Both the position numbers and the translations under genes were made by a program. A DNA stretch of 56,171 nucleotides from Oscillibacter sp. (GTDB lineage: Bacteria > Bacillota > Clostridia > Oscillospirales > Oscillospiraceae), in assembly GCA_022797935.1 (NCBI GenBank), contig JAAWLO010000007.1:1-56171 (forward strand). The letters run 5' to 3'. The notes below the pieces were generated by a model. The model was given only the letters and a program-made list of their open reading frames with translations. It was not told where the DNA came from and did not search any database. Below are positions 46,050 through 53,924 of the stretch, in pieces (the first letter of the stretch is position 1; the number at the start of each line of letters is the position of its first letter).

Positions 46050-46286
46050 ATGCAAATTTTAGCAGAACGATTAAAAGCCTTGCGTGAAAATCGCAGAATC
46101 TATCAAAAAGAGATGGCAGAACTGCTTGGACTGTCTCTCCGAGGATACCAATGTTATGAATCAGAGGAAAGTGAACCCAAGCTTGCCACCCTAATTGCAA
46201 TTGCGGACTATTATCACGTATCCATTGACTACTTAGTTGGCAGGACGGATATCCCGGACTTTCACACTTCCAGCGCAGAGGACTGA
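46050..46286 (+). CDS. Xre family DNA-binding protein
   Basis: 78 residues, almost entirely a helix-turn-helix (LAERLKALRENRRIYQKEMAELLGLSLRGYQCYESEESEPKLATLIAIADYYHVSIDYLVGRTD). ATG at 46050 follows AAGGGGTGG. It ends 4 bases before the TPM gene, so both are probably on one mRNA. Base composition here is lower in GC than around. Likely controls its own and the divergent promoter. Confidence 0.9.
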   Translation: MQILAERLKALRENRRIYQKEMAELLGLSLRGYQCYESEESEPKLATLIAIADYYHVSIDYLVGRTDIPDFHTSSAED

Positions 46287-46290
46287 GGCT

Positions 46291-47403
46291 ATGAAATTCT
46301 TCCAAAAACGCTCCGTGGCTATGGTCATTATGGTGCTGGCCGTGATTGCCGGCACGCTCATTGGCCAGTCCAAGACCCCGGCTGAAAGCGGCGTCACCGG
46401 CAGCTTCGCTTATCTCCTTCACAACGAGGGCGGCGTGATTTCGCAGGACACCGCCTCCCTGATTGCATCCGCCAACGAGTCCCTGTTTGCTCAGACCGGG
46501 GCGCAGATCGTGGTGGACGTGATACGGACCACCGGCAGCAAGGACATTGTCGACTACGCGGAAGAAGTCTTCGTTCAGTACGGCATTGGTTCCCGGGAAC
46601 GGGACAACGGCCTTCTGATTGTTCTGGCCCTGGAGAACGAGTACAACGGCGCACCAAACGGGGATTACACATTATCCTGGGGCAGCGGCTTTAACTCCAG
46701 CCAGCAAATCCAGCTGGAGGATATTCTTTATGAAACCCTGGAGGATTATTTCACCGCCAAGCAGTACGACAGCGGCGTCAAACACGCTTTTCAAAGCCTG
46801 GTAGCCTATCTGGAGGAACTCTACGGCGTGACCGTCCGGCCAGGCTATCTCTCTCAGGCGGGAAATTATCAGGCCATTGCCGGAGGCTACGCCTCCACAG
46901 GGCCGGCCCAATCTCTGGGCGCCCTTGTGGTTCAGGTGGCTGTGCTGCTGGTGATTCTCCTGGCGGTTTGGATGCTGCTGGACGCCATGCGGTACCGCAG
47001 CTACCGGCGGCGCTATTGGGGCCCAACGGTTATCGGGGTTCCCAGGCCACGGTATTATCCGATTTTCTGGGGCCGTCCCCGGCGGCCCTCTCCCCCACCG
47101 CCCCCCGGAGGCTTTGGCGGTCCACGGCCCGGCGGCTTCCACGGAGGCGGGGCCTTGGGCGGCAGTGCGCGCCGTCCCAGCGGGTTCAGCGGAGGCGGCT
47201 CCTTAGGCGGCAGCACACGCCGTCCCGGCGGGTTCAGTGGGGGCGGCTCCTTAGGCGGCAGTGCGCGCCGCTCCGGCGGATTCGGCGGAGGAGGCTCCTT
47301 GGGCAGCAGCGCACGGAGGCCTAGCGGCGGCGGATTCCAGCGGGCCCACCGCGGCGGTTCCGGCAGCAGTACACGGCGCTCCGGAGGAGGCCGCAGGCGC
47401 TGA
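46291..47403 (+). CDS. TPM-domain membrane protein with Gly/Ser/Arg repeat tail
   Basis: 370 residues. N-terminal membrane anchor (VAMVIMVLAVIAGTLIG), an extracytoplasmic TPM domain (about 40-170: VISQDTASLIASANESLFAQTGAQIVVDVI, GIGSRERDNGLLIVLAL, YTLSWGSGFNSSQQIQL), a second span (LGALVVQVAVLLVILLAVWMLLDA), then a cytoplasmic tail with Pro-rich segment and four to five imperfect copies of a 16-18-residue GGSLGGSARRPSGFSG-type repeat ending in RRSGGGRRR. TPM domains are linked to photosystem repair and phosphatase activity in other bacteria; here the role is unknown. The GRS/basic tail may bind nucleic acid or lipid head groups. Confidence 0.82.
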   Translation: MKFFQKRSVAMVIMVLAVIAGTLIGQSKTPAESGVTGSFAYLLHNEGGVISQDTASLIASANESLFAQTGAQIVVDVIRTTGSKDIVDYAEEVFVQYGIGSRERDNGLLIVLALENEYNGAPNGDYTLSWGSGFNSSQQIQLEDILYETLEDYFTAKQYDSGVKHAFQSLVAYLEELYGVTVRPGYLSQAGNYQAIAGGYASTGPAQSLGALVVQVAVLLVILLAVWMLLDAMRYRSYRRRYWGPTVIGVPRPRYYPIFWGRPRRPSPPPPPGGFGGPRPGGFHGGGALGGSARRPSGFSGGGSLGGSTRRPGGFSGGGSLGGSARRSGGFGGGGSLGSSARRPSGGGFQRAHRGGSGSSTRRSGGGRRR

Positions 47404-51155: not shown

Positions 51156-51185
51156 GAAAATAAAAAGAGCCGGGAACACCGGCTC
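51156..51185 (-). terminator. terminator of the cyclase-murT-gatD operon
   Basis: GAGCCGG pairs with CCGGCTC (51185-51179 with 51173-51167), followed on the minus strand by TTTTTATTT. Confidence 0.85.
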
Positions 51186-51200
51186 CTTTTGTCTGCCGCT

Positions 51201-51935
51201 TCAGCGGGACTCTGCCCGGGCCCGGAGCTGCTCCTCCGTGACCGCATAGGCCGCCTGAGACCAGCGGTCCACCGGCCGGTCCACCGGCAGCGGTTTCCCC
51301 CGGCGGGCATAGATGGCAGCGGCGACCGTCTCCAGCAGCTTGGGATTCTTCACCAGCAAAGGTCCCGTAAGCTGCGACGCGAAGACATTTTTCCAGTGGA
51401 AGCCCTCCGCTCCCCGCTCCTTCTCGTTGCCAAAGCCCATGTCCAGACGGGTCAGCAGCGGCGTCTCCACGCCGGTGACCATTCCGCATTTGTTCATGAA
51501 GCCCACGATCGCCTCGGGGTAGAGGTCCGTATGACCGTAAACATCCCCAACCAGGCGCTTTTTGCCGTGGGTGACGGTGAAAGAGGCCAGACCCAAACCC
51601 TCATAAGCGCTGCCGTCCGCCTCCTGAACACGCTGCCCCAGGAGGTCCATAGCCGTTCCCGCAAAGAGTATGGCAGCGCCGTCACCGGCGGCGGCCTTCA
51701 GCTGGCTGCCGAAGCGGGCAAAATCCGCCATAGCGGCCCGAGCCGCCCGTTCCGTGCCTGCGCCCATATAGAAAAAGTCGCCCCGGGCAATGTCCGCGCC
51801 GCCGCCGGGGACCACAGTCTCCAGGATGACGTCACAGTCCAGATACTTTAAATAGCGCTCCAGCGCCAGAACATTCCCCCGGCTGCCGTACAGGCTCATC
51901 AGGTCCGGGTAAAAATGGATCATCCGCACCTCCAT
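51201..51935 (-). CDS. gatD: GatD-like glutamine amidotransferase subunit lacking catalytic Cys and His
   Basis: 244 residues. The fold is that of GatD, the class I glutaminase that feeds ammonia to MurT for amidating D-Glu of lipid II: IHFYPDLMSLYGSRGNVLALERYL at the N terminus, DFFYMGAGTERA, and NVFASQLTGPLLVKNPKLLE at the end. The two residues required for glutamine hydrolysis are gone. Where the family has CGGYQLLG (Cys94) this protein has AGTAMDLLG at 92-100, and where it has YLHGPLL (His189) it has QLTGPLL with Thr190. The GFENH-type segment is also altered to GFMNKCG. It probably cannot hydrolyse glutamine. It follows murT by 4 bases. ATG at 51935 has AAGGAGG upstream; ATG at 51923 is possible. 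Confidence 0.85.
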   Translation of the reverse strand: MEVRMIHFYPDLMSLYGSRGNVLALERYLKYLDCDVILETVVPGGGADIARGDFFYMGAGTERAARAAMADFARFGSQLKAAAGDGAAILFAGTAMDLLGQRVQEADGSAYEGLGLASFTVTHGKKRLVGDVYGHTDLYPEAIVGFMNKCGMVTGVETPLLTRLDMGFGNEKERGAEGFHWKNVFASQLTGPLLVKNPKLLETVAAAIYARRGKPLPVDRPVDRWSQAAYAVTEEQLRARAESR

Positions 51936-51939
51936 GCCC

Positions 51940-53262
51940 TCAGCCCTCCTTTTCCACATGGGCCAGCAGCTTGTCCCGGTCCGAGAAACAGGTAACCACA
52001 AACAGGTCCTCGTCCCCGCTCCGCTTCAGTTCCGCCGCCGCTCTGGCAATGTCCGGCTCAACGGTCCAATCCTCCAAACCGGTAAAGGAAACGCGCTCTG
52101 CCAAATCATTGCAGTACCGTCCCGCCAGAATCACCCGCTTCACATGGGGGACACAGAGCTGGTCAAAATCAATGTCCCACAGCCAGCTGGTCTCACTCGT
52201 AAAATACTTCCGGCTTACCGCATCCACAATGACCAGCACCGTACAATCCCGCTCCGCCGCCGCGATATAGCGCAGGTTTGTATCGTAGGCAATGGAGTTC
52301 TCATGCTTACTGGTCAGCAGCATGCCGTGATGCGCCCCTAAGCGGAAGGTCTGCATCCGGCCGTTCTTCAGCAGGTAGCTGCTGAGGACAGCGGCGGCTG
52401 TCTCCCGGCTTACACCGCACTCCCGGCAGACAGCATAGGCTGCCAGGATGTTGTAAATGTTATAGATGCTTCGGAAGGCCAAACCGACGGAAACCTCGCC
52501 GTCTATGGTCAGGCTGCCGGCCTCCAGATCCACCGCCGTAACCGTATACCCGGTCTCCGGCTTCCGGTGACCGCATTTGGTGCACCGGTACGCGCCAATC
52601 TGGTTGTAATGGACATAATCATACTCCATAGACCCATGACAGAGGGGACAGTAAGCCCCGTCATGATAGACGCCGCCCGGCGCATCCCCGGACACCGAAC
52701 AGCGGTCCAGGCCAAACCACCGCACGTTCTCCCGGCCCTGGGCAAAGCAAGAGGACAGGGGATCATCCGCATTCAGCAGCAGCTTTGTCTCCGGATGAAG
52801 CGCGGGAAGAATGGCGTCATACACCCATTCCGGATGACCGTTTCGGGTAAGCTGGTCCCGGTAGAGGTTAGTAATTACAAATTCCGTGGGATGAAAATAC
52901 CGGAACGTATGGGCGGCATAGCGCTCGTCGGATTCGATGAGGAGTACGTCGGCCTTTACCGTGCCCCCAAAGGTGGCGCGGGTCAGCACCAATGTGGTCA
53001 CACCCTCAATTTGGTTGGAGCCCTCCTCGTTGTAAACCACGGATTTTCCGTCCGCCCGCAGGATGGCGGCAATCATCTCCACGGTGGAAGTCTTGCCATT
53101 GGAGCCGGTGACGGCAATCACCCGCTCCGGCAGCGTCACCCGCCGGAGAATATCCGGACAGACCTTCAGCGCCAGCTTTCCGGGGAGGGAGCTGCCCTTC
53201 CCCACCAGTCCGCCTACAAAGTGTCCCAGCTTGCACAGGGCAATGGCGAGAACCTTTCTCAC
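51940..53262 (-). CDS. murT: MurT-like Mur ligase (divergent C-terminal domain)
   Basis: 440 residues. Mur ligase core with the ATP loop AVTGSNGKTSTVEMIAAIL at about 49-67, NEEGSNQIEG, and a zinc-ribbon insert with CPLC (about 207-210) and CTKC (about 227-230), then the DUF1727 C-terminal domain including SWLWDIDFDQL. MurT with GatD normally converts lipid II D-isoglutamate to D-isoglutamine. The C-terminal motifs usually reading KNPAGFN and NDNIADGRD are here SKHENSIAYDTN and VDAVSRKYFTSE, so this copy is divergent in the region that contacts GatD. GTG start at 53262 overlaps the upstream stop (GTGA). Confidence 0.85.
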   Translation of the reverse strand: MRKVLAIALCKLGHFVGGLVGKGSSLPGKLALKVCPDILRRVTLPERVIAVTGSNGKTSTVEMIAAILRADGKSVVYNEEGSNQIEGVTTLVLTRATFGGTVKADVLLIESDERYAAHTFRYFHPTEFVITNLYRDQLTRNGHPEWVYDAILPALHPETKLLLNADDPLSSCFAQGRENVRWFGLDRCSVSGDAPGGVYHDGAYCPLCHGSMEYDYVHYNQIGAYRCTKCGHRKPETGYTVTAVDLEAGSLTIDGEVSVGLAFRSIYNIYNILAAYAVCRECGVSRETAAAVLSSYLLKNGRMQTFRLGAHHGMLLTSKHENSIAYDTNLRYIAAAERDCTVLVIVDAVSRKYFTSETSWLWDIDFDQLCVPHVKRVILAGRYCNDLAERVSFTGLEDWTVEPDIARAAAELKRSGDEDLFVVTCFSDRDKLLAHVEKEG

Positions 53263-53924
53263 TGCGCATCCATCTCCTTTTCCGGCAGTTCCCGCAGGTC
53301 CGCGATGGCCCGTACCGGCGCGCCATCGGCGTCCTGGAATTTCAGCGGCAGCGCATAGAACCGGAAATTCTCCCGTCCCGCCACCTTTTTCAGGCACAGG
53401 CTCTCCAGCAAGACCATGTTGTCATTGAGAAGGATTTTGTGGGCCGTGTTGCTCTGGTCCCCCACGGCGTCCACTCCCGGCGCGTCGGTTCCCACACCCT
53501 TGAGTCCGCAGGAGACCAAATACCGGGCCGCCGCCGCGTCCAGCACAGGGAACCCATCCTCCAGGTATTCCGGAGTACCCCACTTTTTCTCCCAGCCGGT
53601 ATAGAACAGGACAAAATCCGCCGACCGGATCGCGCCGTTCTGTTCCCGGAGGAAATCAGCGGTAATCACCGGTCCCGCCTGGGTGACGTCCAGAGCCGTG
53701 GCCCGGCCGCAGAAGGAGGAGAGGGGCAGCTTATCCAGCGTGGCGCCCCCCAGCAGCAGATGGGCCGGCGCATCCATGTGGGTGCCGGCGTGAGACCCTA
53801 AGCTCAGACGGGTCAGGCGGCAGCCGCTGTTGGTGAGGGAGGCGGTTTTCTCCAAAACCGGAACCGGATCGCCGGGATAAACCGGGATATCCGCCGTAAT
53901 GGTGTGGGTCAGGTCAATAATCAT
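53259..53924 (-). CDS. cyclase family protein (kynurenine formamidase-like)
   Basis: 221 residues. The HAGTHMDAPAH metal motif (HxGTHxDxPxH) at about 45-55 marks the cyclase/kynurenine formamidase family of Mn/Zn hydrolases; supporting motifs are IDLTHTITADIPVYPGDP at the N terminus and GLKGVGTDAPGVDAVG. Substrate unknown; no tryptophan degradation genes are near. ATG at 53924 follows AAAGGAAGCGC. It overlaps the start of murT, which makes a three-gene operon of unexplained composition. Confidence 0.88.
   Translation of the reverse strand: MIIDLTHTITADIPVYPGDPVPVLEKTASLTNSGCRLTRLSLGSHAGTHMDAPAHLLLGGATLDKLPLSSFCGRATALDVTQAGPVITADFLREQNGAIRSADFVLFYTGWEKKWGTPEYLEDGFPVLDAAAARYLVSCGLKGVGTDAPGVDAVGDQSNTAHKILLNDNMVLLESLCLKKVAGRENFRFYALPLKFQDADGAPVRAIADLRELPEKEMDAQ

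Follow-up and report, generated by a model that had tools for sequence, protein, structure and literature searches.

A MurT/GatD gene pair without GatD glutaminase residues in Oscillibacter and other gut Clostridia

The murT-gatD locus

The window considered here, a whole stretch of 56,171 nucleotides (nt) from Oscillibacter sp. (assembly GCA_022797935.1, contig JAAWLO010000007.1, positions 1 to 56,171), carries on its minus strand a pair of genes for a MurT-like ligase and a GatD-like protein. MurT/GatD normally amidates the D-Glu of lipid II with ammonia released by the GatD glutaminase; the window GatD lacks the residues of that glutaminase, a state that we call dead, as opposed to live or intact. 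The two frames are open and adjacent on the same strand, with a spacing of 4 nt. Their nearest solved relatives by sequence are the MurT/GatD proteins of Staphylococcus aureus, Streptococcus pneumoniae, and Streptococcus pyogenes, and they match the Pfam families MurT_C, Mur ligase middle domain, and GATase_3 with 64.8, 41.9, and 47.1 bits (cut-offs of 25, 24, and 27). The predicted structure of the window GatD has the GatD fold at high confidence. Against the NCBIfam equivalogs, GatD scores 94 to 106 bits (cut-offs of 400/450) and MurT 203 to 206 bits (cut-off of 800); two intact GatDs of the family also fall below (212 to 222 bits), so these cut-offs were dropped as a discriminator of dead from intact GatD. 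The main features are as follows, with clades A and B denoting two groups of dead pairs described below. GatD residues are numbered with Glu, the residue after Met, as 1.

51201..51935, minus strand: gatD, encoding the glutaminase-dead GatD (244 residues including Met); ATG start at 51935-51933
51940..53262, minus strand: murT, encoding the MurT-like ligase (440 residues); GTG start overlapping the stop of a cyclase-family gene; model at a predicted local distance difference test score of 85.0
51645..51662, minus strand: former nucleophile elbow of GatD, A91 G92 T93 A94 M95 D96, equivalent to S. aureus I93 C94 G95 G96 Y97 Q98 by gapless alignment
51366..51368, minus strand: GatD Thr189 codon, equivalent to S. 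aureus His189 by alignment
51555..51557, minus strand: GatD Arg126 codon, retained by alignment and conservation; equivalent to S. aureus Arg128, glutamine-sequestering according to excerpts of PMC5871853
53086..53106, minus strand: MurT P-loop GSNGKTS, residues 53-59
52573..52650, minus strand: MurT Cys4 zinc ribbon (C205, C208, C227, and C230)
52297..52305, minus strand: MurT H320-E321-N322, with a two-residue insertion after K319 that is common to clades A and B
52183..52215, minus strand: MurT S350-W360, SRKYFTSETSW, a clade-A motif in place of ADGRDTSW; E357 is at the position of S. aureus D349

Loss of the glutaminase residues

The window GatD has the motifs AILFAGTAMDLLG and ASQLTGPLL. 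Aligned with the canonical PVLAICGGYQMLG of one intact locus (L038), the 13 residues of AILFAGTAMDLLG leave no gap, and the nucleophile position falls on Gly92. The register is likewise gapless against TICGGYQFLG of S. aureus GatD, with Cys94 replaced by Gly92, Ile93 by Ala91, and Gly95 by Thr93. The first-pass annotation, which was made from the letters of the window, was right that the catalytic Cys and His are gone; its placing of Ala at the nucleophile did not hold, since Ala91 corresponds to Ile93. Further differences from the canonical lipid II isoglutaminyl synthase are Thr189 for His189, Ala58 for the oxyanion Gly60, and, at the third triad position, which is contributed by MurT, Glu357 for Asp349. 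Both members of the Cys-His dyad of class I glutamine amidotransferases are therefore absent from the window GatD. Because the register puts Gly at the nucleophile, the Cys in FCGTAMELLG (L027), LCGTAMELLG (L029), and FCGTAMQLLG (L118) does not stand at the nucleophile position.

Gly occupies the nucleophile position at a frequency of 1.00 in 134 distinct clade-A GatDs and of 0.96 in 77 clade-B GatDs. In a set of 30 dead GatDs, none of the Cys, Ser, Thr, and His positions is invariant (Thr60 comes close, at ≥90%), which gives no sign of a new dyad common to them. All three triad positions were read at 338 loci, redundant loci included: 228 have a dead GatD with a non-Asp MurT and 88 a live GatD with Asp, 16 are dead with Asp, 6 are half-dead with Asp, and none has a live GatD with a non-Asp MurT. 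Across loci, the loss of Cys and His thus goes with that of the MurT Asp. Two B-like pairs with a dead GatD (L087 and L109) have Val at the Arg128 position and a MurT that still has the Asp (NKDTTW). A more divergent dead MurT/GatD group in genus g127 (L257, L258, and L261) is without the Arg128 equivalent and the MurT SW motif.

The loss is clade-wide. A search of the genus with the window GatD gave one match each in 35 of 36 other genomes, and none of the 32 sequences read (L007-L035, L118, L119, and L123) has the Cys/His pair; L123 (genome G009) is of type B, and at L007-L035 both residues are gone in 29 of 29 loci. At the class level, 14 of 391 genomes (one of them the window's own), in six families, carry a clade-A MurT (587 bits or more; next match, 380), and all 14 have dead GatD motifs. 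L220 and L221, below the clade-A score, also have a dead GatD. Clade-A records among the matches listed include Oscillibacter valericigenes, O. ruminantium, Dysosmobacter sp., Flavonifractor sp., Pseudoflavonifractor sp., and Massiliimalia massiliensis.

Within a family sample of 300 genomes, 192 had a MurT_C match, of which 186 were read and six were not fetched. Dead A/B pairs occur in 97 of the 186 (dead B in 62, dead A in 31, and dead B with a GatD-less MurT in 4), and intact pairs occur in 74 (live only in 69, live with a GatD-less MurT in 4, and live with a dead copy in a canonical background in 1). The rest have dead or half-dead GatD in a canonical background (5), a canonical MurT without an adjacent GatD (8), a partial locus (1), or a clade-A MurT for which no GatD was read (1). 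No genome holds both a live and a dead A/B pair, compared to 24.4 expected if the two were independent (294 genomes; hypergeometric P(0) of 4e-16, a descriptive value that ignores relatedness). Four genera (g32, g57, g65, and g96) contain both kinds. The absence of shared genomes and the presence of both kinds within genera look as if intact and dead pairs fill one role. The window's own genome, 84% complete, has a single MurT_C match, and no second canonical MurT/GatD pair was found in it; its other GATase_3 matches are a weak one of 21 bits on contig C97 and two on contig C1 (frames of 499 and 478 residues), which we take to be CobB/CobQ-type proteins and of which L002 shows an intact Cys/His site.

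In a MurT tree of 91 rows (midpoint root, long branches flagged), the MurTs of dead pairs lie on one starred branch (100), apart from canonical and GatD-less MurTs, and divide into subclades A (100) and B (90, not starred). A larger tree of 148 rows, whose group counts are approximate because the model was simpler and the search brief, joined A and B again (99), with L087 outside B. One or both glutaminase residues were lost separately in otherwise canonical pairs as well: Cys became Gly at L331, L349, and L359 and Asp at L336, and His was lost with Cys kept at L302, L348, and L224. On the larger tree these losses take at least five changes (L331 with L359, L336, L302 with L348, L349, and L224), and the GatD-less MurTs take six, although L284, one of them, was not checked for a contig end.

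MurT-like ligases with a DGxD motif and no adjacent GatD include L354, L355, L356, L358, L360, L101, L102, L106, L107, L112, L124, and similar loci; L124 and L106 adjoin amidohydrolase-, PHP-, GlmS-, or NagB-like genes, named by eye. A canonical GatD query on 12 genomes with a GatD-less MurT (completeness of 65 to 98%) gave four kinds of result: no match in seven (G147, G218, G120, G282, G306, G087, and G228), a 39-residue match in G099, a B-type GatD in three (G161, G318, and G355), and, in G076, a real GatD at another place. A passage of PMC11915815 states that bacterial species having MurT also have GatD. Taken together, the separate Cys losses beside a canonical MurT (L331/L359, L336, and L349) and the GatD-less MurTs suggest that these bacteria can do without the glutaminase.

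Maintenance of the pair and its neighborhood

The pair was proposed at the outset to be intact, coupled, and maintained, and this is borne out by the open frames, the short spacing, conserved order, and selection. Of the best 80 clade-A loci, all named, 78 have over 800 nt of sequence downstream of MurT, and GatD follows in all 78. The ratio of nonsynonymous to synonymous substitution rates (dN/dS, or omega) was estimated by a simple counting method on 37, 12, and 14 picked pairs (A, B, and live), from which those without a usable dS were dropped. Median omega for GatD and MurT is 0.20 and 0.16 in clade A (23 pairs), 0.13 and 0.11 in clade B (12 pairs), and 0.18 and 0.14 in live pairs (10 pairs). 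The dead GatD is under purifying selection. The GatD/MurT ratio of dN is 1.70 in A, 1.24 in B, and 1.06 in live pairs, and below 90% MurT identity the GatD/MurT distance ratio is 0.67 to 0.92 in canonical pairs, 1.26 to 1.73 in A, and 1.04 to 1.31 in B; in the bins of 90 to 100% identity (4, 14, and 3 pairs) it is 10.69, 1.65, and 2.04. Below 90% identity, then, GatD is the slower-evolving partner in canonical pairs and the faster one in dead pairs, where it is less constrained relative to MurT.

A sequencing or assembly error was rejected, as was a decaying pseudogene: the same state recurs at about 240 loci from many assemblies, isolate genomes among them, and the open frames, a median omega of about 0.2 or less in every class, and the high-confidence fold argue against a pseudogene pair. 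We regard either explanation as having practically no chance of being correct.

Residue roles are taken from excerpts of work on S. aureus and S. pneumoniae MurT/GatD (PMC6113224, PMC5871853, and PMC6085368). By these, the window MurT keeps the P-loop, the Mg-binding acidic residues, the acceptor Asn, the hinge Arg (R302), and the Cys4 zinc ribbon, so that the earlier statement that the ATP loop and zinc ribbon persist can be extended to the Mg and hinge residues. In each of clade A (42 rows), clade B (34), and the canonical group (30), conservation is ≥90% at MurT G56, K57, T58, N83, E110, D112, E113, R135, D136, R140, N164, D166, the four zinc Cys, N268, Y270, N271, R302, K319, N322, W360, and D363 and at GatD R126. 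The window MurT motifs are TSKHENSIAYD and VDAVSRKYFTSETSWLWD. The hallmark motifs described as lost are thus lost in part: the DGRD and PAG parts are replaced, and the K and N of KNP are kept around the two-residue insertion (K319-H320-E321-N322). An interface aromatic is also kept by alignment, with window W362 equivalent to S. pneumoniae W360.

On the minus strand the order is a cyclase-family gene, murT, gatD, and then a hairpin:

53259..53924, minus strand: PF04199 cyclase-family hydrolase, overlapping murT by 4 nt; a neighbor judged to be outside the system
51162..51190, minus strand: terminator-like hairpin and T run directly after gatD (4 such sites in the region, compared to 3.1 expected from shuffles)

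The suggestion that the cyclase shares the function of the pair found no support, and it was rejected as a conserved functional partner. Where there is room upstream, 14 of 25 close named loci (MurT ≥70% identical) have the cyclase no more than 60 nt from murT, compared to none of 37 more distant clade-A loci, and at L071 it sits beside a putative mnmG gene, with murT elsewhere on the contig. We read the cyclase, on this arrangement, as a probable neighbor from the mnmG region. Clustering of 61 loci gave as recurrent neighbors MnmG-like (14), tRNA methyltransferase-like (8), DNA-glycosylase-like (8), and ATP-grasp-like (5) families, named by eye from open reading frames that include shadow frames; none of these recurrent neighbors offers a clue to the substrate. 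The ATP-grasp-like protein is near the pair at L074, L077, L078, L083, and L087. Elsewhere in the window, at 46237-47403, lies an open reading frame with a long low-complexity tail rich in Gly/Arg/Ser.

Possible nitrogen donor, substrate, and role of GatD

Of the functions first listed for the pair (use of free ammonia, glutamine binding, another amine, and another substrate), all of them reasonable, the data lean to free ammonia. We therefore tentatively propose, at somewhat less than an even chance, that MurT is a ligase working without glutamine hydrolysis that amidates a peptidoglycan precursor with free ammonia, beside a non-catalytic GatD. MurT would still use ATP to activate a carboxyl group, and the likeliest one is the alpha-carboxyl that D-Glu bears in a lipid-linked precursor. 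The acyl phosphate that MurT would form would be attacked by ammonia from the cytosol rather than from GatD, yielding D-isoglutamine. GatD would stay as a required partner that completes the complex, and its old glutaminase site may keep a ligand pocket or an ammonia entry.

Ammonia is the simplest donor because Cys has been lost recurrently beside canonical MurTs, because MurTs without GatD are found, and because a laboratory precedent exists. According to excerpts of PMC3266927, S. aureus GatD_C94G/MurT loses glutamine use yet keeps NH3-dependent lipid II amidation at pH 8.5, with both subunits needed. That mutant has the same Cys-to-Gly replacement with MurT present; the dead pair differs from it in being natural, in being fixed across many genera, in also lacking His and the MurT Asp, and in having new conserved motifs. 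A precedent in logic only is an unrelated single-chain synthetase that is fed by free ammonia and keeps a class I glutamine amidotransferase domain without the nucleophile. Archaeal GatD-less MurT-like proteins (described in part of PMC11915815) and the loci L354-L356, L358, and L360 are likewise MurT-type ligases without a working glutaminase, but they have no GatD at all, and those five loci keep the DGxD motif.

Three sets of observations weigh against free ammonia and keep the proposal tentative: the pH dependence of the S. aureus enzyme, a conserved GatD pocket, and new MurT motifs. In the same excerpts, S. aureus MurT/GatD uses ammonia at pH 8.5 and not at 7.5, which raises the possibility that ammonia alone is an inadequate donor at the pH of the cytosol. 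At pocket positions picked from published work, mean entropy is 0.73 compared to 1.90 for the rest of GatD in A and 1.25 compared to 1.89 in B. Positions conserved at 90% number 10/24 in the pocket and 26/189 elsewhere in A (Fisher, 0.002), 7/24 and 20/189 in B (0.018), and 16/24 and 52/189 in live GatDs; the pocket of dead GatD is loosened relative to live GatDs, yet not dissolved. Arg at the Arg128 position has a frequency of 0.99 in A and 0.94 in B, and it is present in 234 of 241 A/B loci, redundant loci included. A conserved old pocket with this Arg is more than a mere scaffold requires. Moreover, the similar median omega of GatD in clade A and in live pairs makes the relaxation of GatD relative, not absolute, and 36 of 42 clade-A rows have Ala in place of the GatD interface Gly (S. 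pneumoniae Gly34, window G19).

The pocket would also suit a GatD that acts as a sensor, in which glutamine or glutamate bound in the old site switches MurT on or off while ammonia remains the nitrogen source. R126 and G16 are kept in A and B, Y15 has a frequency of 1.00 in A and 0.53 in B, and the pocket is conserved while the nucleophile is consistently absent; excerpts of PMC5871853 report that R128A alone abolishes the S. aureus glutaminase. R126 may nevertheless be structural, and the Arg is absent from L087, L109, L257, L258, and L261. We consider a sensor role quite improbable.

The new motifs bear on the main rival, in which the pair would place a different amine (an amino acid or a diamine) on the alpha-carboxyl of the precursor's D-Glu. 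In clade-A MurT, HENS.AYD and SRKYFTSETSW are new and nearly invariant, which suggests new chemistry, and the C-terminal domain in which they lie is the one that binds the incoming amino acid in MurC-F. The incoming amine might be bound there or in the old GatD pocket, conserved with R126 and E61, which would bind its ligand and not split it. Cadaverine and putrescine are attached at D-Glu in Selenomonas and Veillonella walls, according to excerpts of PMC12826042, a case of a non-ammonia amine at this position. Against such an amine, the C-terminal motif is not common to the two clades (SRKYFTSETSW in A; HWSENVSW, for example, in B), the Cys-to-Gly losses in canonical MurT backgrounds (L331, L349, and L359) require no new amine, and no amine-making enzyme was recognized among 13 neighbor proteins inspected by eye. 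A pseudo-glutaminase pair repurposed in this way in common gut Clostridia is unlikely; if true, it would add a new type of wall modification by Mur ligases, carried out by an enzyme family of its own.

The remodeled C-terminal motifs could also reflect a different acceptor, either another carboxyl of the peptidoglycan precursor or a non-peptidoglycan substrate. The window MurT is 28 to 34% identical to the canonical MurTs compared, and no wall gene was recognized by eye among the recurrent neighbors (mnmG, tRNA methyltransferase-like, and DNA-glycosylase-like). The counterparts of residues close to the acceptor or to Mg are nonetheless kept (N83, D112, E113, N164, and D166), and the lack of co-occurrence with the intact pair, together with alternation within genera, suggests the same role. 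We find a different substrate improbable, and free ammonia on D-Glu remains our preferred, if tentative, reading.

MurT/GatD itself is known, and the glutaminase-dead pairs are a new variant of it; only an amine other than ammonia would make them anything beyond this. No MurT/GatD pair without the GatD Cys is described in the title or the start of the abstract of the open-access matches listed, a set outside which most subscription journals and all preprints fall. The part of PMC6085368 that reports murTgatD as widespread in Clostridiales, and as almost missing from Bacillaceae, does not mention glutaminase-dead pairs. Public names ("MurT ligase domain-containing protein," "CobQ-like glutamine amidotransferase family enzyme," and hypothetical protein) give no sign that the glutaminase residues are gone, although dead A/B pairs are commoner than intact ones in the family sample read. 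In published abstracts, amidation of the D-Glu in peptidoglycan is linked with cross-linking and with recognition by host NOD receptors, and MurT/GatD is named as a drug target. Relatives alternate among an intact pair, a dead partner, and no partner found, which makes them a natural experiment on the need of amidotransferases for a glutaminase, and the many gut Clostridia with a dead pair probably draw their nitrogen from elsewhere or attach a different group.
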